In this document: piece after piece, positions 48,702 to 60,715 of the stretch
Position numbering within the stretch: position 1 is the first letter of the stretch
Layout of the letters: every line of letters starts with the position of its first letter
DNA from: Heyndrickxia ginsengihumi
Lineage (GTDB): Bacteria > Bacillota > Bacilli > Bacillales > Bacillaceae_C
Assembly (NCBI RefSeq): GCF_011008565.1
Contig: NZ_JAAIWK010000005.1
Coordinates: 62,001-126,000, forward strand
Length of the DNA stretch: 64,000 nucleotides
Direction of reading: 5' to 3'
Position numbers and translations under genes: made by a program
Notes under the pieces: model-generated
What the model saw: only the letters and a program-made list of their open reading frames with translations
The model's database searches: none
Told to the model about the DNA's origin: nothing

Positions 48702-49586
48702 ATGAAGAAAGTAAGAAAAGCAATTATTCCGGCTGCGGGTTTGGGGACAAGATTTTTACCTGCTACAAAAGCAATGCCGAAAGAAATGTTGCCAATTGTT
48801 GATAAGCCAACGATTCAATATATTATTGAAGAGGCTGTTGAAGCAGGAATCGAAGATATTATTATTGTTACAGGCAAAGGAAAGCGGGCAATTGAAGATC
48901 ATTTTGATCGTGCTCCGGAACTAGAACAAAATCTTGCTTCAAAAGGTAAGCATGAACTTCTTGAAAAAGTAAATTACTCCTCGAATTTAGCTAATATCCA
49001 CTACATTCGCCAAAAAGAGCCAAAAGGACTTGGACATGCTGTTTGGAGTGCACGCAGTTTTATTGGTGATGAACCATTCGCAGTTCTATTAGGCGATGAT
49101 ATCGTTCAAAGTGAAACTCCATGCTTAAAACAATTAATGGACAAATATGAAGAAACACATTCTTCTATTATTGGTGTTCAACAAGTACCTTCAGAAGAAA
49201 CTCATCGTTATGGCATTATTGACCCAACAGCACAAAATGGCCGACTTTATGAAGTTAATAATTTTGTTGAAAAACCTGCCCAAGGAACTGCTCCATCTAA
49301 TTTAGCGATCATGGGACGTTATGTACTAACACCGGAAATTTTTACACTTCTAGAAAATCAAGAAACAGGTGCAGGAGGGGAAATTCAATTAACAGATGCA
49401 ATCCAAAAACTAAATACAACACAGCGCGTATTTGCCTACGATTTTGATGGCAAACGTTATGATGTCGGAGAAAAATTAGGATTCGTAAAAACGACAATAG
49501 AATTTGCTTTGCAACATGAAGAAATAAGACAAGATGTCATTAAAGTAATAGACGAATTGCTACAAGAATACAAAATAAAGTCTTAA
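48702..49586 (+). CDS. galU: UTP-glucose-1-phosphate uridylyltransferase
   Basis: The 294-residue nucleotidyltransferase has [20 protein letters not shown] (about 11-30) for nucleotide binding, [10 protein letters not shown] and the [13 protein letters not shown] loop. It makes UDP-glucose for teichoic acid glucosylation, glycolipids and exopolysaccharide. It matches the GtaB/GalU family in length and stands first in a wall-polymer locus. GGGGGT precedes the ATG. Confidence 0.93.
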
Positions 49587-49621: not shown

Positions 49622-52600
49622 ATGGATTTCTTTGAAATTTCTTTTTATACTTTGAGGGAAAACTTTTTGATTATGACTATAGAAGATGAAAAATTTCCTG
49701 TAGAGAATTTTCAACTTTTATTTGTTAACAGAGAGTCGAAAAAAATCCAAAGTGTAACTCCTGAAATAGAAAACAATAAAAACGGAAAATTTATTAATAT
49801 AGATTTAAATGGAATTTATTTTGATGATAAGAGTAAAAATATTATTGATTTATATATTAATAGAGAAAATAAAAAAATAAAAATAAAATATAACACAGTT
49901 AATTTAAAAACTAGGGTTAATAAATATTTGCCGAATGAATATCGGTTAAATTCTAATAGAGTTGTTGTTCCTTATTTAACTAAATTAAACACATTGTCTC
50001 TTTTATATGGTAATGCAACTGAAGTGTTTAAAAGCTATTGTAATAAAATTGATGAGAAGATCACTGCTCAGAATGTTGAATTTAATCAGAATAATGTTAT
50101 TTTGACATTTAAAGAAAATCTTTTAAATATTAATAACTCTCCATTGTATTTGGCTGTTCAAAATAAAAAAGATAATAGTATAGTTGGAATTACCTTTGAG
50201 ATATTGAGTGCTAATCCTTTAAAATTGCAATTTCCTTTTGAAAGCATTAGAGATTTAAAACATGAATTAGAATATTATTTATATCTAATACAAAAGAATG
50301 GTGGGTATAATTTAGTTAAATATAGAATTGGATTAGATCAAAATATTAGTGAAGAAAGCCAGAGATTTTTTAACTCATTTGAAATAAATCGAACTAAAAA
50401 AATATTACCGTACATTACTTCAAAAGGGGAGCTATCTTTTTTAATTGGAAACGATGAGATCTTGGATAAAAGAATCTATAGTGTAGTACGTAATGATGTA
50501 TACATTGATCAATTTTCATTAAATAATAAAACATTGAAAATTTCCTTGAAAGAATCAGATAATATAGATTTTCAAGGTGAGTACGCAATATATATTAAAA
50601 ATCGTAAAAGTTCAGATGTAATTACTTTGAATACGGAAGAAGTACTTTTTGATCCATTAAAAAGGGAAATTAACATTAACTTACTGTCACTATTTGACAA
50701 AAATAACATTTTTGAGCTTAATCAAAGATGGTTTTTGTATGTGAAATTTTACAAAGAAGAACAGGTTATAATTTCACAGGTGAAAAAAGAAGGTATTTGG
50801 GTTGAATCTGCTCTTCAAAGACATATGAGCCCACTTGAAATAAATAAAGACTTAAGTCTAATAGTATATATTTCTGGTAAAAATGAGCTAGGGATTTTAT
50901 GTGGAGATCAATCGATATATAATAGAGAAGTTTATAAAAAATTATCTGGATATACAAATATCCATGATATTAGACTTATTGGTACTAATATACATTTCAG
51001 TATCAATAATTATGGTTATAACATGGATAATCTAAAACTTGCTATTATATTTAAGGAAAGAAAAACAAAAGAAGAGTGGAAACAGGAGTTAAACTATAAA
51101 TCTAAAGATGGTTTAATATCTATAATTTTAAATCTAGATTCATTTATACAGGAGTATAAAACTAAACAATCACGATGGGATTTGTATCTAGAAATTCAAA
51201 CATACAGAATAATAGAAACTAATAGGATAGGATATTTTGATGCTCCGGTAAAACCAGCGTATGACAGGTTTTTAGATAGCATAATAACGGACACCCCTAA
51301 TTCAGTTACTCCATATTTAACTTCTAAAAACGAATTATCAATCGTTGTGAAGCCTGAAATTAATTTGAATTCTGAAAAAGTTAAAGCTGATATGAAGCTA
51401 ACTAAGTTTAAAATGAGAGGACCATTGATAAGTGGACAAGTATCCTTAAAATTACATGAATGTAATGTCTATGAGGTTACTTCTGTCATGCTAAAGTATC
51501 GTGATAAAATCGAAGTAGTAGAATATAAGTTTGAGGCAAAAGAAAAAAAGGATAATACAAACAACTCTCAAGTATTCTTTAAAGTTGACCTAAGTTCACT
51601 AGAGCTGCAGAATTACTATTGGGATTTATTTGTTGTAGTTAAAATTAACAATAGAGAATATGCCCTTAAAATTAAAAATCCAACTAAAGAAGTTAAAAAG
51701 GCAATTGACAAAAAAGTAGTAAGATATTCTTATACAGATAAAAATGGTTTTCTAATATATCCATATGTTACTTCGGTAAATACATTGGCTATCGGATATA
51801 AAGAAAAGGAAGCTTATGAATCTACATTTTATAAAATAAAAGAGAATCTAGCTTATTATACTTATAGGCTATTTAAAAATTATTTTAATAATAAAGGTAT
51901 ATGGCTTGGTTATGAAAAATTTTCTGAGGGTGCTCAGGACAATGGATACTACTTTTTTAAATATTGCTATGAAAATAGCAAACGGAAAAATTTTTACTAT
52001 ATAATTAAGGAAAGTTCTCCAGATTATTCAAATGTTATTGGTATGAAGGATAAGGTTCTAAAATTTATGAGTTTTAAATATATGTTGTATATGTTTGCTG
52101 CTGAGTTGCTTATTTCTTCTGAATCAAAAGGGCATTCATATGATATTCGTATTGAAAAAGGTAGACTAAAAAAAGCCTTAAAAAATAAAAAACAAGTATT
52201 TTTGCAACATGGTGTTACAGCATTAAAAAGAGTTGATTACGTATTTAATAAAAATTCAACGCATGCGGTTGATTTATTTGTGGCTACTTCTGATTATGAA
52301 AAGAATATTATTAAAAATAATTTTGGTTATAATGATAATGAAATTATTACAACTGGTTTTTGTAGATGGGATGTTCTAAAGGATTTATCTGGGGAAGAAA
52401 AAATAATATTTCTTATGCCAACCTGGAGAACTTGGATGGATGATTTACCAGAATCAAAATTCAGAGAAACAGAGTATTATAAGAAATATGTTGGCTTTTT
52501 AAATTCAAATGTACTTGTTGATTTCCTTGAAACAGAAAATATAATATTACAATTTTATATACATCCAAAATTTAAGGCCTACATTGATAACTTTAAAACG

Positions 52601-52987
52601 AACTCAAAAAATATTAAGATTTTACAATATGGGGAAGAAAAAGTAAATGAGTTATTAATGAAATCATCGCTATTAATAACAGACTACTCAAGTGTAGCGT
52701 GGGAAATGTTTTATATGAAAAAACCAGTAATTTTTTACCAATTTGATATTGAAGATTATAATAATTTTCAAGGTAGTTATTTAGATATGGAAAATGATTT
52801 GTTCGGAGATAGAGTATTTGATGTTGATCAACTTGTAAAAATGGTCAAGGATTATTATCAGAGAGATTTTAAAGAAAAACCTAACTATGGTTTACTTAGA
52901 AGTAAGTATTTTAAATACGTAGATAATAAGAATTGTGAACGGACATATAAGGCTATTATGGATAAGAAAAAAAAGAACATCCTTTAA
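49622..52987 (+). CDS. CDP-glycerol glycerophosphotransferase-family protein with five tandem N-terminal modules
   Basis: The 1121-residue protein ends in a TagF/TagB-type catalytic domain (about 735-1115): His863 in FLQHGVTALK, MPTWRTWMDD, His981 in YIHPKFKAY and LLITDYSSVAWE. Before it, a motif of the form PYxTxxNxLS occurs near residues 113, 260, 411, 560 and 710, an almost constant 150-residue period, indicating tandem beta-rich modules. It probably polymerises or adds polyol-phosphate units at the membrane. The start ATG 49622 is preferred; a GTG at 49610 is possible. Composition is AT-rich compared with galU. The gene is much longer than ordinary TagF (about 750). Confidence 0.82.
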   Translation: MDFFEISFYTLRENFLIMTIEDEKFPVENFQLLFVNRESKKIQSVTPEIENNKNGKFINIDLNGIYFDDKSKNIIDLYINRENKKIKIKYNTVNLKTRVNKYLPNEYRLNSNRVVVPYLTKLNTLSLLYGNATEVFKSYCNKIDEKITAQNVEFNQNNVILTFKENLLNINNSPLYLAVQNKKDNSIVGITFEILSANPLKLQFPFESIRDLKHELEYYLYLIQKNGGYNLVKYRIGLDQNISEESQRFFNSFEINRTKKILPYITSKGELSFLIGNDEILDKRIYSVVRNDVYIDQFSLNNKTLKISLKESDNIDFQGEYAIYIKNRKSSDVITLNTEEVLFDPLKREININLLSLFDKNNIFELNQRWFLYVKFYKEEQVIISQVKKEGIWVESALQRHMSPLEINKDLSLIVYISGKNELGILCGDQSIYNREVYKKLSGYTNIHDIRLIGTNIHFSINNYGYNMDNLKLAIIFKERKTKEEWKQELNYKSKDGLISIILNLDSFIQEYKTKQSRWDLYLEIQTYRIIETNRIGYFDAPVKPAYDRFLDSIITDTPNSVTPYLTSKNELSIVVKPEINLNSEKVKADMKLTKFKMRGPLISGQVSLKLHECNVYEVTSVMLKYRDKIEVVEYKFEAKEKKDNTNNSQVFFKVDLSSLELQNYYWDLFVVVKINNREYALKIKNPTKEVKKAIDKKVVRYSYTDKNGFLIYPYVTSVNTLAIGYKEKEAYESTFYKIKENLAYYTYRLFKNYFNNKGIWLGYEKFSEGAQDNGYYFFKYCYENSKRKNFYYIIKESSPDYSNVIGMKDKVLKFMSFKYMLYMFAAELLISSESKGHSYDIRIEKGRLKKALKNKKQVFLQHGVTALKRVDYVFNKNSTHAVDLFVATSDYEKNIIKNNFGYNDNEIITTGFCRWDVLKDLSGEEKIIFLMPTWRTWMDDLPESKFRETEYYKKYVGFLNSNVLVDFLETENIILQFYIHPKFKAYIDNFKTNSKNIKILQYGEEKVNELLMKSSLLITDYSSVAWEMFYMKKPVIFYQFDIEDYNNFQGSYLDMENDLFGDRVFDVDQLVKMVKDYYQRDFKEKPNYGLLRSKYFKYVDNKNCERTYKAIMDKKKKNIL

Positions 52988-53012
52988 ATAATAAACATGT
53001 CGTCTAAAATTT

Positions 53013-53041
53013 AAGAACGCTTTTTTAGCGTTCCTTTTTTA
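53013..53041 (+). terminator. Rho-independent terminator
   Basis: The stem GAACGCT / AGCGTTC with a T-rich loop is followed by TTTTTT. It ends the galU-to-first-transferase transcript, so the next transferase may have its own promoter in the 125 bases that follow. Confidence 0.88.
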
Positions 53042-53175
53042 TAATAGACTTTTAAGTAGTGCACTTATTTTTTTGAAAGTATTTCTATCTTATGTAAACA
53101 TTTACTGTGGGTTATTAATCCCTTGAACTTGATTTTTTATGTTGTTGATAATCTTAAGTTAAAGGAATGATGCAA

Positions 53176-55419
53176 GTGAAGAAAATTAAGTATAGTCAAA
53201 TGTTACCCACAACAAAAATTGATTATAGTGTTGTTAAAGAAAAATTATCTATTAGTGACATTTTATTGGATATAAAAGAAGAAAAAATAACGTTTAAAAT
53301 TAAAAAATATAAATTTTTAGATCTTTTGAATTTACAATTAGTTATACAAGAGAGAAGATCCAAAATTAGATGGATTAAGAAGTTAACTAGCAATTCTATC
53401 AAGAGTAATGGAGTAATTGTTATTAATGTGGGCCAATTTATACAGAAATATAGTCATATGGTATCACGTTGGGATTTTTATCTAATTGAAGAATGTAATG
53501 ATTTAGGTGTGATAAAAGAATATCGAATAGGCTTATTTGATAGGGATGTTCAATTTAAGCATATGAGATATTTCCAATCTTTTGTATCAGAAGGAACTAA
53601 TTTAGTAACACCTTATTTAACTACCAAAAATGGTTTTTCACTAGTAATAAAGAATTATTTGAATTTATCAAATGAAAAATTATCATTTCGCATGAAATTA
53701 TTAAAGTTTAATATGAATAATAGTACTATTACAGGTCATTTAAAACTAAAATTTTTAGAATTAAAGTCATACGAAATAAAATCCTTATTACTTATATATA
53801 GAAATAAAAATGAAAATATTAAATATGAGTTTCAAATTAATGAAGTTAGAAAGAAGAATTACTCATCTGTTTATTTTTGTTTAGATATTTCTAACTTACT
53901 GTTTGAAAATTATTACTGGGATTTTTATTTAGTAATTCAAGTTGATGGGGAAGAATTTTTCTTGAGAATTAAAAATCCTTCATTCAAAGTTAAGAAAAAA
54001 ATTAACCACAGTATTCGTCAGTCATATACCTATGATAATGGATATTGGATCTATCCATATATTACAGCAGTAAATTCAATTGCTCTGATTTATAAAGAAA
54101 AGGAAAAATATGAAAGCGAATTTTATAGATTTAAGGAAAGACTAGCCTACCTTTTTTATATAATTTTCAAATTTTACTTTGATCGAAAAAAAATATGGCT
54201 TGCTTTTGAAAAATTCTCTGAATCTGCTCAAGATAATGCTTACTTCTTTTTTAAATATTGTTATGAACATAATAAAAAGGATAGTTTTTACTATATTATA
54301 AAAAAAGATTCCTCTGATTATAAAAATCTTTTTGAAATGGATGATAAGGTAATAGAATATATGAGTTTTAAATATATGGTATATTTATATGCTGCAAAGT
54401 TACTTATATCTTCAGAATCTAAAGGACATGTTTATAATATTAGAGCCCAGCGTGGGAGAATAAAACAGTCATTAAAAAGAAAAAAACTAGTCTTTCTACA
54501 ACATGGTGTTATCGGTTTAAAAAAAGTTGATCATATATTTAAAAAGACTAGTTCAAATGCGGTTAATTTATTTGTAGTTTCTTCTAATTATGAGAAATCA
54601 ATTATACGAGATAACTTTGGATATAAAGATGAGGAAATAATTTTAACTGGTTTAAGTCGGTGGGATCAATTAACTGATAAATCATGTGGTAAGAAGACAA
54701 TCCTACTAATGCCAACTTGGAGATCCTGGATGGATGATTGGACTGAGGAAAAATTTATTAAAACAGAGTATTATCGTCAATACACATCATTATTAAATTC
54801 TCTTGAACTAGAAAGAATTTTAGTTAAGTATGATATTGAGTTGAATTTTTATATTCATCCAAAGTTCAAAGCATATATTAGTAAATTCTCAAGTGCAAAT
54901 AAGAGAGTAAAAGTTTATAAGTATGGAGAGGAAAAAGTAAATGAACTACTAATGAGTTCTTCTTTACTTGTTACAGATTATTCAAGCGTAGCATGGGATA
55001 TGTACTATCAAAAGAAACCAGTTATTTTTTATCAATTCGATTATGAAGACTATAAAAAATATCAAGGTAGTTATTTAAATATGGAAAAAGAGATTTTTGG
55101 AGATAGAGTATTTAGCTTGTCGGGGCTCCTTACTATAATTAATGAGTATGCAGTTAGAGGATTTAAAGAAAAAAAGGAATTTGCTGATAAAAGGAATAAT
55201 TATTTTGCTTATATTGATTCGAAGAATTCAGAAAGAATTTTCGAGAATATTATTCAAAGACAAGATCTACTAAAAAGAAGAGTAGACTACGATAATTATT
55301 TAATAAAATTAAATTCAAATAAATTAATTCATAAATTATGGCAATATATGAAAAGAAATAGTCTAACTTCTAAATTAGCATTAAATATTAAGAGTGCTTT
55401 ATTAAAAGAAAAATTTTAA
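53176..55419 (+). CDS. CDP-glycerol glycerophosphotransferase-family protein (TagF-like)
   Basis: The protein of about 747 residues is a paralogue of the C-terminal two thirds of the preceding protein, matching segment by segment: RWDFYL, YRIGLFD, VTPYLTTKNGFSL (about 140), YYWDFYLV and YPYITAVNSIAL (about 290). The catalytic domain carries His443 in FLQHGVIGLK, MPTWRSWMDD, His561 in YIHPKFKAY and LLVTDYSSVAWD. GTG 53176 fits the AAAGGA at 53161-53166; ATG 53167 is possible but too close. It probably acts on the same wall polymer. The last 70 residues are basic and could bind the membrane. Confidence 0.82.
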   Translation: MKKIKYSQMLPTTKIDYSVVKEKLSISDILLDIKEEKITFKIKKYKFLDLLNLQLVIQERRSKIRWIKKLTSNSIKSNGVIVINVGQFIQKYSHMVSRWDFYLIEECNDLGVIKEYRIGLFDRDVQFKHMRYFQSFVSEGTNLVTPYLTTKNGFSLVIKNYLNLSNEKLSFRMKLLKFNMNNSTITGHLKLKFLELKSYEIKSLLLIYRNKNENIKYEFQINEVRKKNYSSVYFCLDISNLLFENYYWDFYLVIQVDGEEFFLRIKNPSFKVKKKINHSIRQSYTYDNGYWIYPYITAVNSIALIYKEKEKYESEFYRFKERLAYLFYIIFKFYFDRKKIWLAFEKFSESAQDNAYFFFKYCYEHNKKDSFYYIIKKDSSDYKNLFEMDDKVIEYMSFKYMVYLYAAKLLISSESKGHVYNIRAQRGRIKQSLKRKKLVFLQHGVIGLKKVDHIFKKTSSNAVNLFVVSSNYEKSIIRDNFGYKDEEIILTGLSRWDQLTDKSCGKKTILLMPTWRSWMDDWTEEKFIKTEYYRQYTSLLNSLELERILVKYDIELNFYIHPKFKAYISKFSSANKRVKVYKYGEEKVNELLMSSSLLVTDYSSVAWDMYYQKKPVIFYQFDYEDYKKYQGSYLNMEKEIFGDRVFSLSGLLTIINEYAVRGFKEKKEFADKRNNYFAYIDSKNSERIFENIIQRQDLLKRRVDYDNYLIKLNSNKLIHKLWQYMKRNSLTSKLALNIKSALLKEKF

Positions 55420-55451
55420 AAAATAGAAGTTTATACAAAAGGAGAATGAAA

Positions 55452-57458
55452 TTGTTTCAAGTTGAAAAGATTAATGTTAATAAGACGTTTATAAATATTA
55501 TTTTTTCTGCAAAGAAAGATTTTGATAATCTTAAATTAGAACTAAGGTTACGAGACACGGGTAGATTCCTAATGTATTCTTATGAAAATTGTTCTGAGGT
55601 AGATGTACACCATCATAACAATAATCATTATGAAGTTAACATTAGCTTGAAAGAACTCGTTAAATGCTTTCAAATAATAAACCCGGTAAAACAACTGGTC
55701 TATATAAATGTTATGGATGGTAATGGAAATTATTATGATCTTTTTATTAATGATAATATTAAAAAGCAGTTGAAAGAAATTAAAGAGATATCTCTTAATA
55801 AACTTGCAAAAATGACTCTAATAGGTAGAGGAAAAAATGAATTAGCATTTAAGATTCAAAAAAATACTTTAAGAAACAAAATAGATTATTTAAATATTGA
55901 TAATAAAAATAAAAAAATAATGCTAGCTGTTACTTCTTCTATAAAAAACTCTGAAGAAGAATTATTTATTGATAATTTGTATCTGAAAAAAAGAGTATTC
56001 AAGGATACTTTAGTGTATTCTGAAAGTTTGGAATTACAAAGATTAAGTAGTAATTTATTTAGTTTAGATTTTGAACAAATAAATAATTTTACTTATGATG
56101 ACATCATTACTGTTTTAGACTTTGTTGCAGAAGTAAAGGAAGACGGTATAAGTCTTGAGGCTGATTTAAAAAGGGATGAAGAGCTTAAAATTGAAGAAAT
56201 AAATATAAATAGTGATAATAAAATCAATCCATATTGGACACTTTCAAATGGATTATCTATTCGTGTAGAATCCCTTTTTAAAAGTATTATTATTAATTCT
56301 ATCAACTTAAATGGTTATTTATTATCACTAAAGTTAAAGAAAGAACTTAGCTCTACTAATAATATAAAATGTTTTCTTTTTAGAGAGCAAAAAATTTATA
56401 ATGACTTAGAATTAGTACCATTTAGAGAAATAAATGTGGTAAATAAAGAAGAAAATATATATATAAATTTAGATATAGAAGAAATATTTAAAAATTTAGA
56501 TACTAATATAAGACAAGCTTACCAGTTGTGTATAGAGAAAAATGAAGAAAGATATATTTTAGTAACAAACAATAAATTTGAAGATACTATATATGTAAAT
56601 AATAATATTAAGATTGCACTTATTTCTGATGATAATACGCTAAAAATTAGCATTGAACCAAATACAGAAAAAGCAGTCAAATTAGGTATCATTGGTTCAT
56701 GTTTTACGCGTCTAGCATTCAGTAGTAAAGATGATTTTTTTAATCCAGATTATAAAACGTACTTTAGTGTTGAATTTTCACATTTTTGGCCTTCGATAAT
56801 TAGCTTATTTAGCAACCCAATTGATTTCAAAGAAGAAAATTTTCCTGAAGTAAAGGGTACGGATCTTGTAAATTTGAAGAGGGAATTTGAAAAGTCAACT
56901 TTTAATGAACTTAAAAACAAAAATATTGAATATGTTTTAATTGACTTTTTTGTAGATGCAATTCATGGTGTTAGAAAATTTAAAGACAGAGATGCCTATG
57001 TGGTTCAACATGGTTCAATGCAAAGAACATCTTTTTTAAAAGACAAATTGTTGAAGGAAACTGAACAGTTTGATTATAGGAATCCCTCTTTTTGGGAAAA
57101 ATGGAAAAAGTCATGTGATCAATTTATTATGGAGCTAGAAAAATTGATAGACTTAGATAAAGTTATTCTTATTTGGGGAGGACTAGCAAAGGAATATTAT
57201 GATAAGAATAAATTAGTTAAAAATTTCGCAGGAGAGAAAAGATTTACAAATACTCAATTGAATTATTTTAATAATATATGGAATAAGATGAATAATTATT
57301 TTCTTTCTAAAGCTCCTAATGCCAAATTAATTGATATGAGAAAATATAACTATTTATCTACTATGGATCATAAGGATGCTTTTGGACCTCACCATTTTGA
57401 AAGCAACTATTATAAAAGTCTTATAGGTGAACTTTCAAAAATTGTTACAAGATCTTAA
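55452..57458 (+). CDS. DUF6270-like (SGNH-type) protein with N-terminal repeat modules
   Basis: The protein of about 668 residues has a C-terminal region starting near residue 415 with IIGSCFTRLAF, then VEYVLIDFFVD, VQHGSM and DAFGPHHFES, compatible with an SGNH-hydrolase-like fold of the DUF6270 type. The N-terminal part has repeats like those in the two transferases before it (LIGRGKNELAFKI near 120, NPYWTLSNGLSIRV near 256, LISDDNTLKISIE near 386). It may modify or trim a wall polymer by acyl transfer or removal. TTG 55452 suits AAAGGAGA at 55438-55445; ATG 55446 lies too near. The family call is moderate and the role is inferred. Confidence 0.6.
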   Translation: MFQVEKINVNKTFINIIFSAKKDFDNLKLELRLRDTGRFLMYSYENCSEVDVHHHNNNHYEVNISLKELVKCFQIINPVKQLVYINVMDGNGNYYDLFINDNIKKQLKEIKEISLNKLAKMTLIGRGKNELAFKIQKNTLRNKIDYLNIDNKNKKIMLAVTSSIKNSEEELFIDNLYLKKRVFKDTLVYSESLELQRLSSNLFSLDFEQINNFTYDDIITVLDFVAEVKEDGISLEADLKRDEELKIEEININSDNKINPYWTLSNGLSIRVESLFKSIIINSINLNGYLLSLKLKKELSSTNNIKCFLFREQKIYNDLELVPFREINVVNKEENIYINLDIEEIFKNLDTNIRQAYQLCIEKNEERYILVTNNKFEDTIYVNNNIKIALISDDNTLKISIEPNTEKAVKLGIIGSCFTRLAFSSKDDFFNPDYKTYFSVEFSHFWPSIISLFSNPIDFKEENFPEVKGTDLVNLKREFEKSTFNELKNKNIEYVLIDFFVDAIHGVRKFKDRDAYVVQHGSMQRTSFLKDKLLKETEQFDYRNPSFWEKWKKSCDQFIMELEKLIDLDKVILIWGGLAKEYYDKNKLVKNFAGEKRFTNTQLNYFNNIWNKMNNYFLSKAPNAKLIDMRKYNYLSTMDHKDAFGPHHFESNYYKSLIGELSKIVTRS

Positions 57459-57585: not shown

Positions 57586-58926
57586 ATGAATTATAAAAAG
57601 AAATATGCAATTAGTATTACTCTAATTTTATTAATTTTAATTTTAGGTATTTTATTTTTGAATATAAACTTAACTAAGCATAAATCGAATTCTAACATTA
57701 AATCAATTAATGAAGAAAAAAGCTCAAAAAATAAAATACTTAAAACTTCTTACTATTCTTCTCTTAGACTCAATGTAAAGCAATATGGTGCGATTGGTGA
57801 CGGTCACCATGATGATTGGAAGGCAATTCAATTAGCATTAAATAGAGTAAAAAGTAATGGTGGAGGAACCGTATATATTCCTAATGGCAAATATATTGTT
57901 ACTCACGCATTGCGAATATATAGTAACACTTATTTAAAACTTGCAAAAGATGCTATTATAGTCAGAAAAGATGATGGAACGGTAGTAATTAATGGCGAAG
58001 TGAATGGACAATACACAGGATATAATGGACAAGGAAATATTTTAATTGAAGGAGGAATTTTTTTGATGAATGATTCCTCCAATCCTAAACCTGGGACTGC
58101 TTTTGGAATTGCAAGAGCAAACGGTCTTGTAATACGAAATGTAAAAGTTTTAAATATTGTTAACTCACACGGTATAGATTTAAACTCCTCTAAAAACGTT
58201 GTTATTGAGAATTGCAAATTTATGGGCTTTAAAGATACTACTAACAATAAATCAAGAGGATATGCAGAGGCAGTTCAAATCGCAAATCACACAAAAATTG
58301 GTTTCAGTATATTAGGAGTTTATGATGGGACTCCGTGTGAAAATGTTAAAGTATCTCATTGTATATTTGGTAATAACAGTAAAGACGGGTTCGGTTCATG
58401 GGGAGTAGGTATAGGAGATCACAGTTTAGGAGTAATCGGGAAATATAATAGGCATATACAAATTACGAAAAACACATTTCTAGACTGTTCATTCTCAGGT
58501 ATACATATAAATAGTTATAAGGATACAGAGATAACCGGGAATAGATTTGAGGAATGTGAACATTCTATTTTTGTTTTTACTCCATCTGAAACATACACGT
58601 CGAAGGGTATTATTAATGATAAAATGCAAGTTGGTGAGGATATTTATATAAATAAGAATCAATTTATAAATACACAAAAAGAAAATATTCTTATTTCTGG
58701 AAATATCATAAAGAATAATGAGAAAAGGTATAGTAAAATTAAAATTAATAATAATAATTTTATAAGCACTAATAGAAAAATCAAAAATAATATTCCTAAT
58801 ATTAAACTAGAGCTATGTCAAGGTCTTTTAATAAGAGATAATTATTTTAAAGGAACCACTTATAATATACAACTATTGAACAGTGATGAATCAAGAGTAT
58901 TAAATAATAAATTATTATCTAGTTGA
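57586..58926 (+). CDS. Membrane-anchored right-handed beta-helix protein (pectate-lyase-3-like)
   Basis: The 446-residue protein has an N-terminal membrane anchor (about 8-28) and an outer domain beginning LNVKQYGAIGDGHHDDWKAI, the signature of pectate-lyase-3/GH28-type beta helices, followed by repeated parallel-helix rungs rich in Asn and Ile (GLVIRNVKV, NVVIENCKF, HIQITKNTF, DTEITGNRF). Such proteins degrade or epimerise acidic polysaccharides. Its place after the polymer transferases suggests it processes a surface glycan. The ribosome site is weak. Substrate unknown. Confidence 0.75.
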   Translation: MNYKKKYAISITLILLILILGILFLNINLTKHKSNSNIKSINEEKSSKNKILKTSYYSSLRLNVKQYGAIGDGHHDDWKAIQLALNRVKSNGGGTVYIPNGKYIVTHALRIYSNTYLKLAKDAIIVRKDDGTVVINGEVNGQYTGYNGQGNILIEGGIFLMNDSSNPKPGTAFGIARANGLVIRNVKVLNIVNSHGIDLNSSKNVVIENCKFMGFKDTTNNKSRGYAEAVQIANHTKIGFSILGVYDGTPCENVKVSHCIFGNNSKDGFGSWGVGIGDHSLGVIGKYNRHIQITKNTFLDCSFSGIHINSYKDTEITGNRFEECEHSIFVFTPSETYTSKGIINDKMQVGEDIYINKNQFINTQKENILISGNIIKNNEKRYSKIKINNNNFISTNRKIKNNIPNIKLELCQGLLIRDNYFKGTTYNIQLLNSDESRVLNNKLLSS

Positions 58927-59119: not shown

Positions 59120-60715
59120 ATGAGTCATTCAGTCATTTTCAAAAATGTTACAAAAAAATATAAAATGTACAAAAATAATGCCCAAAAGCTATTAGATGTC
59201 GTTATTCCAGACGGCTATGGTGAAGATTTTTATGCATTGCAAAATATTAGTTTTACTGCTGATGAGGGCGATGTCATCGGAATCATTGGTGTTAACGGTG
59301 CCGGAAAATCTACATTATCAAATTTAATTACCGGTATCATTCCTCCAACTTCAGGTTCAATTGAGGTAAAAGGGCAGGCATCATTAATTGCGATCAATTC
59401 AGGCTTAAATAATAACTTATCTGGTAGAGAGAATATTGAATTAAAATGCTTAATGCTTGGATTTAATAAAAAACAAATTCGCGAGTTAATGCCTGAGATC
59501 ATCGAATTTGCTGATATAGGTAAATTTATTGATCAGCCTGTGAAAAATTATTCAAGCGGTATGAAATCACGGCTAGGATTTGCGATTTCAGTTAACGTTG
59601 ATCCTGATGTTTTAGTAATCGATGAAGCATTATCGGTTGGCGACCAAACATTCACGGATAAATGCTTAGATAAGATGAATGAATTTAAGGAAAAAGGCAA
59701 AACAATCTTTTTCATTAGCCACTCGATTGGACAGGTGAAGAAATTTTGTCAAAAGGCGCTTTGGCTTGAAGCAGGTGAAGTAAAAGCATATGGCACAATT
59801 GAAGAAATCGTACCGGAATACGAAAAGTTTTTAAAAGAGTTTAAAAAAATGTCTAAAGAAGAACAAAAAAACTTTAAACAAATGGTTTTAGAAAAGCGGA
59901 GCAGATTGAGGGAACAGGAACAGAGGGCTGCGAATGATGAAGATGAGCTAATTCCACAGGGACTTTTAAGAGAAAGTAAAAAAAAACATAAAGTAGCTCG
60001 TTATTTTATACGGCTGCTTTATGTAATTATATTCTTGATATTAATCGGCGGCGTAATATACGCGACAAAGTCAGGATTACTTTCAAAACAGCAAAATCAC
60101 AAGTCTTCTGCGGTTCATCACACTGTAGAGCATGCTAAATCGAAGAATACTGTGACAACGGAAAAGACAAAGAAACAGAAAAAAAAGGCTAGTACATTCC
60201 GATATGTCGATGTTCCAAAGGCAAATATTCGAAAATCTCCTGATGGTGCAGCGATTGCTACCGTTAATTTTGGGCAAGCTTTACAGATAAAAACATCGAA
60301 GAAAAATACTGATGGGGTTACGTGGTATAGAGTGTCTTTTGAGGGGTATGAAGGTTGGATTAGCAGTAAGGTTTTGACTAATATTAAGGATGAAAAGAAT
60401 GATGAACAAATTGCTAAGCAAATTGACCAGTTGATCGGTTTTACTCCCTCTTTAAAAGAAGCTATTCCGATGATTGGAAAGAAAAAAGGAGCAGAACAGT
60501 CTTTCGCTTACACTACGTATAAGTATAAAAAAGGTGTTGTAACGGGCTTTACGATAAAAGTCACTGGCTCTTCCCCTTCTGAAGTGGCTGCACAATTAGG
60601 GGAACCCCAGTTAAAATCTGATGATACATTGCTGTACCATGGTTCTAAATATGATTTTATTTTTGTATTATCTACGAATGGAACCATTGATACTTTAACT
60701 GTACTAAAAAGGTAA
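59120..60715 (+). CDS. tagH: Teichoic acid export ABC transporter ATP-binding protein with C-terminal SH3 domain
   Basis: The 531-residue protein has an ABC domain (about 1-245) with Walker A GVNGAGKST (57-65), signature YSSGMKSRLG (about 145) and Walker B VLVIDEALSVGDQ (about 164). A membrane segment lies at about 295-316, an SH3-like domain at about 361-423 (ANIRKSPDG, EGWISSKVL) and a further extracytoplasmic domain to the end. This architecture and length match B. subtilis TagH (about 527), partner of the permease TagG in exporting wall teichoic acid. TagG is not in this window. Codon use returns to that of the flanks here. Confidence 0.92.
   Translation: MSHSVIFKNVTKKYKMYKNNAQKLLDVVIPDGYGEDFYALQNISFTADEGDVIGIIGVNGAGKSTLSNLITGIIPPTSGSIEVKGQASLIAINSGLNNNLSGRENIELKCLMLGFNKKQIRELMPEIIEFADIGKFIDQPVKNYSSGMKSRLGFAISVNVDPDVLVIDEALSVGDQTFTDKCLDKMNEFKEKGKTIFFISHSIGQVKKFCQKALWLEAGEVKAYGTIEEIVPEYEKFLKEFKKMSKEEQKNFKQMVLEKRSRLREQEQRAANDEDELIPQGLLRESKKKHKVARYFIRLLYVIIFLILIGGVIYATKSGLLSKQQNHKSSAVHHTVEHAKSKNTVTTEKTKKQKKKASTFRYVDVPKANIRKSPDGAAIATVNFGQALQIKTSKKNTDGVTWYRVSFEGYEGWISSKVLTNIKDEKNDEQIAKQIDQLIGFTPSLKEAIPMIGKKKGAEQSFAYTTYKYKKGVVTGFTIKVTGSSPSEVAAQLGEPQLKSDDTLLYHGSKYDFIFVLSTNGTIDTLTVLKR

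Follow-up and report, generated by a model that had tools for sequence, protein, structure and literature searches.

Three consecutive genes in a 64,000-nucleotide (nt) window of Heyndrickxia ginsengihumi contig NZ_JAAIWK010000005.1 encode proteins with several N-terminal copies of one module, and this module is a distant relative of the C-terminal domain 1 (C1) of TarS, of immunoglobulin (Ig)/CBM48-like fold, as indicated by profile searches of the PDB, genome scans, and fold comparison. The window is the whole stretch of DNA analyzed; unless a locus label precedes them, coordinates are positions in it, and the window features listed by coordinates as domains or annotated genes lie on the forward (+) strand. 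P0001 (49622..52987), a TagF-type transferase of 1121 amino acids (aa), carries five copies (Pfam, module profiles, and structural model); P0002 (53167..55419), a TagF-type transferase of 750 aa, carries two (Pfam and module profiles); and P0003 (55446..57458), a protein of 670 aa, combines three copies with a DUF6270 domain (Pfam and structural model). In TarS itself, C1 had so far been described in one copy. Observation covers homology, fold, positional conservation, the catalytic histidines, and the locus context. What had been noticed in an earlier reading of the letters alone (the sequence-only reading) is confirmed, and the interpretation given there is partly supported.

The repeated module and its kinship with TarS C1

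The five repeats of about 150 residues that the sequence-only reading had described in P0001 are contiguous and in a single phase, at residues ~1–118, 119–265, 266–417, 418–566, and 567–716, with lengths of 147–152 aa, the first one (~118) excepted; a PYxTxxNxLS-like element closes every repeat, and the motif positions given earlier were right within a few residues. The two modules claimed for the adjacent transferase were likewise found, at P0002 residues 11–152 and 153–300. Stricter profiles delimit the units at 9–118, 124–264, 270–416, 423–565, and 571–715 in P0001 and at 17–150 and 157–298 in P0002. P0002 module 1 corresponds to P0001 module 4 (35% identity), and P0002 module 2 corresponds to P0001 module 5 (43%). 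Copies within one protein share only ~19–25% pairwise identity, so a plain BLASTP self-comparison yields little (best off-register match P0001/P0002, at 4e-6; single-sequence self-similarity is weak). The self-alignment suggested as a check thus gave in BLASTP the weak outcome that the sequence-only reading had named as counting against it, whereas an iterated profile seeded with the last P0001 module recovers the remaining modules in fixed phase.

To avoid circularity, a held-out profile was built from other species only, without any window sequence, and compared with a null of ~20,000 composition-matched shuffled pieces. All seven transferase repeats scored above every shuffle (lowest 16.2 bits versus a null maximum of 15.1), as they did with a held-out profile of upstream-type modules only (lowest 21.9 bits versus 14.2). 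With the two profiles in that order, P0001 module 1 (49622..49975; model strands 3–90, hairpin 113–131) reached 16.2/21.9 bits, module 2 (49976..50416) 18.8/42.6, module 3 (50417..50872) 19.9/27.7, and P0002 module 1 (53197..53622; RWDFYL...RIGLFD) 51.3/78.6, and P0002 module 2 (53623..54066), of the last type with YYWD, reached 116.6 bits. The held-out profile also recognized P0001 module 4 (50873..51319; RWDLYL...RIGYFD) and module 5 (51320..51769; last-type, YYWD, net charge +9). The low GC content here (23–29%) and the weak single-sequence self-similarity could suggest that the repetition in this AT-rich, K/N/I-rich protein arose by chance or from low complexity; this is virtually out of the question, being contradicted by the held-out profile against the shuffles, on which chance or compositional repetition was rejected, by the predicted fold, and by the recognition of TarS.

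In the AlphaFold2 model of P0001 (39 sequences; mean predicted local distance difference test score, pLDDT, 84.7), an identical strand order occurs five times, a β-sandwich being followed by the PYxTxxNxLS hairpin and a short helix (boundaries read from the DSSP string). Structure prediction and fold search, also proposed earlier as a check, agree with the repeat: the modules share one fold order, and modules 1 and 3 of P0003 match TarS C1 and RmlT, respectively. Pfam recognized no family in the N-terminal regions of P0001, P0002, and P0003, and a PHROGs search of the window modules gave no match.

When the upstream-module profile was compared with all PDB sequences, TarS was the top match (E 2.5e-4 and 6.5e-4), and the alignment paired the R, WD, and RIG/RVG residues; the last-module profile reached TarS at 0.03. 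When the Pfam family TarS_C1 (PF18674) was used to scan the entire genome from which the window comes, P0001 modules 4 and 5 were its sole matches (E 0.0028 and 0.001, both sub-threshold), and the same scan gave no match in any control genome. Among 399 Bacilli genomes, the upstream-module profile detected, outside the genome of the window, only four TarS-like proteins of 574–578 aa and one TagF protein with a QHG motif (see below), this further QHG protein carrying TarS_C1 above the curated cut-off. Two of the four TarS-like proteins were checked with Pfam and comprise GT2, TarS_linker, TarS_C1, and TarS_C2; in the TarS-like proteins L108 and L109, a PYFTxxxxxLSFY hairpin closes C1, as in the module. 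Two proteins that pass the curated TarS_C1 cut-off, L112 and L024:13483-16416, bridge the families. In the latter, TarS_C1 (7e-22) directly precedes a QHG TagF domain; the last-module profile (A4) matches this protein in register (P 5e-5), and profile A5 gave no match to it. Given the profile, scan, and bridging-protein evidence together with the sub-cut-off scores, the window modules are distant TarS_C1 relatives and not formal Pfam members.

TarS C1 (PF18674; PDB 5tz8, 5u02) shares with the module the Ig/CBM48-like fold, the R ... WD ... RIG residues, the PYFTxxxxxLS hairpin, and the occurrence in a teichoic-acid enzyme. The arrangement differs, since TarS has one C1 (plus C2) C-terminal to GT2, whereas two to five copies lie N-terminal to a TagF or SGNH-like domain in the window. 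The accessory region of RmlT, a Listeria wall teichoic acid rhamnosyltransferase (PDB 8bz4, 9gzk), was matched by the P0001 and P0003 models, although RmlT is a glycosyltransferase rather than a TagF-type enzyme. In the whole-model fold comparison of P0001, the results were filled by catalytic-domain matches; the fold match to TarS C1 comes from P0003 module 1.

This module (aa 1–140; 55446..55865) aligns by VIA-align with TarS 352–491 (Z 14.0, root-mean-square deviation (rmsd) 2.5, 126 residues aligned), generic Ig matches reaching only Z about 6, and thereby has the Ig-like fold of TarS_C1. Module 3 (aa 278–410; 56277..56675) aligns with RmlT 344–560 (Z 9.4, rmsd 3.1, 121 aligned), and module 2 (aa 141–277; 55866..56276) is recognized by the strand order of the model, in which the hairpin region has a pLDDT under 50, and by its sequence motif PYWTLSNGLS. 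The P0003 model (ten homologues) has a mean pLDDT of 69.3 and three sandwich modules. The sequence of P0003 alone is not significant against the module profile; L010, a full-length homologue of the same architecture, is recognized at E 3.5e-5 (Z=1000) in three stretches. The three weaker modules attributed to this protein by the sequence-only reading are therefore real as folds, given the recognition of the homologue and the three modules of the model, but a clear PYxTxxNxLS-like motif is present in the second only.

TagF-type and DUF6270 domains

The arrangement proposed earlier, a repeated module multiplied before a TagF-type domain and common to an SGNH-like neighbour, is borne out by profiles, Pfam, and folds. 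The TagF-type domains (PF04464) occupy residues 755–1113 of P0001 (51824..52960; 4.7e-45) and 337–696 of P0002 (54175..55254; 1.8e-43), with 154.6 and 149.4 bits versus a cut-off of 22.1. The P0001 model matches the solved structures of TagF (3l7j; Z 29.3) and TarL (8va1), and both TagF catalytic histidines (H444 and H584) are present, as His863 in the QHG motif and His981 aligned with H584. In the comparison with the ribitol-phosphate polymerase TarL, P0001 588–1114, from module 5 through the TagF domain, aligned with TarL 3–561; as the alignment spans module 5, TarL may carry one such N-terminal domain, but with an overall rmsd of 16 Å the N-terminal match is unproven, and no sequence link between the TarL N-terminus and the module was found. 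TarL differs in having a single domain at most and in being a tetramer.

The catalytic domain is thus of the TagF type, as had been read from the sequence, but P0001 and P0002 carry QHG rather than the WHG of the TagF/TarF glycerol-phosphate or TarL ribitol-phosphate polymerases, and both lie far below the NCBIfam equivalog cut-offs (34.9 and 32.2 bits versus 550 for TarF; 30.5 versus 1000 for TarL). Of the module-linked TagF domains (loci including L013–L056), 60 have a detectable motif, and in every one it is QHG, although these are not 60 independent events, most being related by descent; the more distant relatives L112 and the L024 TarS_C1 protein likewise have QHG. The housekeeping TagF of the window genome has WHG, as does the extra N-terminal TagF domain in dual relatives (23 of 23). 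In L028, L035, L054, and similar Lachnospiraceae and Coriobacteria relatives, a single chain joins a TagF domain with WHG, one module, and a TagF domain with QHG; an N-terminal GT2 domain in the long relatives was considered and rejected, since Pfam shows a second TagF domain in these three, and the WHG pattern suggests that the other dual relatives likewise have one. According to a figure legend, WHG marks glycerol-phosphate polymerases and QHG marks GT-B hexose-phosphate transferases (PMC11666461). Because QHG is linked to hexose-phosphate transfer, P0001 and P0002 are probably not glycerol-phosphate polymerases, and the product probably contains hexose-1-phosphate rather than glycerol-phosphate alone.

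The DUF6270 domain of P0003 (56676..57446; GSCFTR ... HHFESNYY; Pfam 6.5e-17) is best read as an SGNH-like fold, since the model of residues 406–669 matches the SGNH hydrolases BT3161 (4h08; Z 10.9) and Est2A (3u37; Z 8.7), both standing out from the generic matches listed with them. It has GSC where SGNH enzymes have GDS, and a conserved H...E..YY near the C-terminus. P0003 is possibly a partner of the transferases, acting as an O-acyl transferase or esterase on the same polymer. DUF6270 proteins are found after a TagF-like gene in other Bacillota and before gtaB in L065, L067, and L068, and profile A5 matches the DUF6270 alignment weakly (P 0.0065). No literature on DUF6270 was found; the fold now offers a first interpretation of such a wall-locus protein, namely an SGNH-like partner that bears modules. 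An Enterococcus DUF6270 protein (L021:9943-12594) has an extra C-terminal region of ~400 aa and lies beside three tandem module-bearing TagF genes.

Age of the array and proposed role of the arm

A GTDB genome scan yielded 44 loci, and a last-type module immediately precedes the C-terminal TagF domain in nearly every relative. The modules are rare: the last-module profile was detected in 1 of 398 genomes of a phylum sample and the upstream-module profile in 6 of 399 of a class sample; the array was sought in four congeners and not found, and in two of these the inspected surroundings of gtaB, the gene flanking the array upstream, hold other genes. In a quick module tree with many long branches, the 16 last modules all cluster together (SH-aLRT 96), and P0001 module 2 groups with module 2 of L013 and L016 (SH-aLRT 99). 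As the modules sort by position across genera and not by protein, copies in corresponding positions are orthologues, and the array is old. The multiplication proposed by the sequence-only reading is real, but the recent event implied by a module multiplied and passed to a neighbour disagrees with this grouping; recent tandem duplication was rejected on the positional clustering and on the 19–25% identity within proteins. A long N-terminus of four to five recognized or implied units recurs in the orthologues L013, L015, and L016 (P0001 has the most recognized units), which, together with module identity conserved by position, would suit a spacer or ruler whose length sets the distance from the membrane or export site to the catalytic site, or the chain length, without specific binding. 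Such a device is improbable, however, as paralogues with one or two modules occur within the same loci and the sequence conservation exceeds what a spacer needs.

We favor, as moderately probable from the combined analysis, an arm that would both hold the polymer and assemble the enzymes. In this reading, each module is an Ig-like accessory domain, a β-sandwich with the R ... WD signature, the PYxTxxNxLS β-hairpin, and a short helix, and five copies form a long cytoplasmic N-terminal arm on the TagF-type transferase, with two on the paralogue and three on the SGNH-like partner. The module adjoining the catalytic domain would guide the anionic polymer into the active site, the outer modules would oligomerize the enzymes or dock one to another, and the arm would raise processivity, like the tetratricopeptide repeat (TPR) arm of Gram-negative TagF-like capsule polymerases. 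The last modules carry a basic net charge (mean +5.5, positive in 34 of 39 relatives), which fits substrate contact. The sequence-only reading knew of no described role, but the closest relative has one: TarS C1/C2 is a trimerization domain and tandem carbohydrate-binding-module region with basic grooves to the active site, and its deletion changes the kinetics little and lowers polymer affinity and intrinsic processivity (PMC5156392). One domain among the nearest structural relatives, TarS C1 and RmlT, has been proposed to bind teichoic acid. Cps3D, Cps7D, and Cps1B also have a long repeat arm on a TagF-like polymerase, although of α-helical TPR instead of Ig modules, with an extra glycosyltransferase domain in the chain, and in Gram-negative bacteria; the N-terminal TPR arm of Cps3D/Cps7D is required to elongate poly(Gro3P), truncation making the enzyme more distributive (PMC11666461), and the TPR domain of Cps1B mediates oligomerization (PMC5974469).

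Several points weigh against what we infer here about polymer binding, oligomerization, the substrate, and partnership with P0003. The P0001 modules score 20.6 and 19.2 bits for TarS_C1, under the Pfam curated cut-off of 26.3; the link of QHG to hexose-phosphate is a motif correlation from a single figure legend (PMC11666461); the outer, upstream modules are near neutral in charge; no ligand-binding residue was identified in the module, its conserved R and WD looking structural; the TarS domain is largely dispensable for catalysis (PMC5156392); and no biochemical work on close relatives came to light. The near-neutral outer modules favor assembly, and a pure scaffold, in which the modules oligomerize the two transferases, the DUF6270 enzyme, and the exporter into one complex without direct polymer contact, is a tentative alternative of lower probability. 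It agrees with the trimerization role of TarS C1/C2 itself (PMC5156392), the non-basic upstream modules, the single module type on all three adjacent gene products, and the Cps1B arms, which oligomerize the enzyme and are dispensable for activity (PMC5974469); however, nearly all relatives keep a basic module in the fixed place beside the active site, which fits substrate contact, and TarS truncation also lowers polymer affinity and intrinsic processivity (PMC5156392).

More speculatively, and on balance unlikely, the Ig-armed QHG TagF proteins of Bacillota and Coriobacteria would be a distinct, unnamed class of sugar-1-phosphate polymerases with an obligatory arm of the TarS-C1 type, whose copy number would set processivity or chain length, and in which dual enzymes would couple WHG polyol-phosphate and QHG hexose-phosphate domains and so produce an alternating polymer. 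Little is understood of how the chain length and processivity of Gram-positive wall polymers are controlled, and in Gram-negative capsules the arms of TagF-like enzymes matter for such control; the proteins described here provide a Gram-positive series in which otherwise similar enzymes bear anything from one to five copies of a single defined domain, linked to a motif suggesting a different product. Given this natural range, truncation offers a direct test of what the arm does.

Layout and surroundings of the locus

The AT-rich locus between gtaB and tagH is most plausibly a variable island for wall-polymer synthesis. It is flanked upstream by a gtaB-like UTP-glucose-1-phosphate uridylyltransferase gene (48702..49586; Pfam NTP_transferase) and downstream by a tagH-like gene for an ABC ATPase with an SH3 domain (59120..60715; Pfam ABC_tran, SH3_3). 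Genes encoding gtaB products 70–81% identical lie near module or DUF6270 genes in L013, L015, L017, L019, L065, L067, and L068, and tagH homologues lie near the loci of L013, L015, L019, and other relatives. The GC content is 23–29% across P0001–P0003 (49000-58999) versus 36–42% on both sides, and this dip between gtaB and tagH suggests a transferred island. Between P0001 and P0002, a terminator-like hairpin with a T tract (53015-53033) is present, and the tandem genes may therefore not share one transcript. Directly after P0003, positions 57586-58926 encode a right-handed β-helix (pectate-lyase-like) protein, membrane-anchored or secreted, which is possibly a wall-polymer hydrolase or lyase. 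No tagG accompanies tagH (59120-60715); a gene for an ABC-2 permease (L083:9123-9995), likely tagG, adjoins tagB and tagF on another contig. The genome of the window has three gtaB-like genes (G000 contigs C55, C2, and C1) versus two in each of four congeners.

In Bacillus subtilis 168, the gtaB–tagH interval is filled by the minor-teichoic-acid genes ggaAB, which we take to be the same chromosomal place as that of the window array. The GgaA/GgaB polymer is a hexosamine-phosphate polymer without glycerol phosphate, and GgaB of this species has an N-terminal GT2 domain, unlike the window enzymes; no module array is known in GgaA or GgaB. The GgaB-like protein of the window's genome (L082:2030-5107) comprises a GT2 domain, TPR repeats, and a TagF-type domain in which HHG motifs occur, and is encoded at another locus, near fliD.

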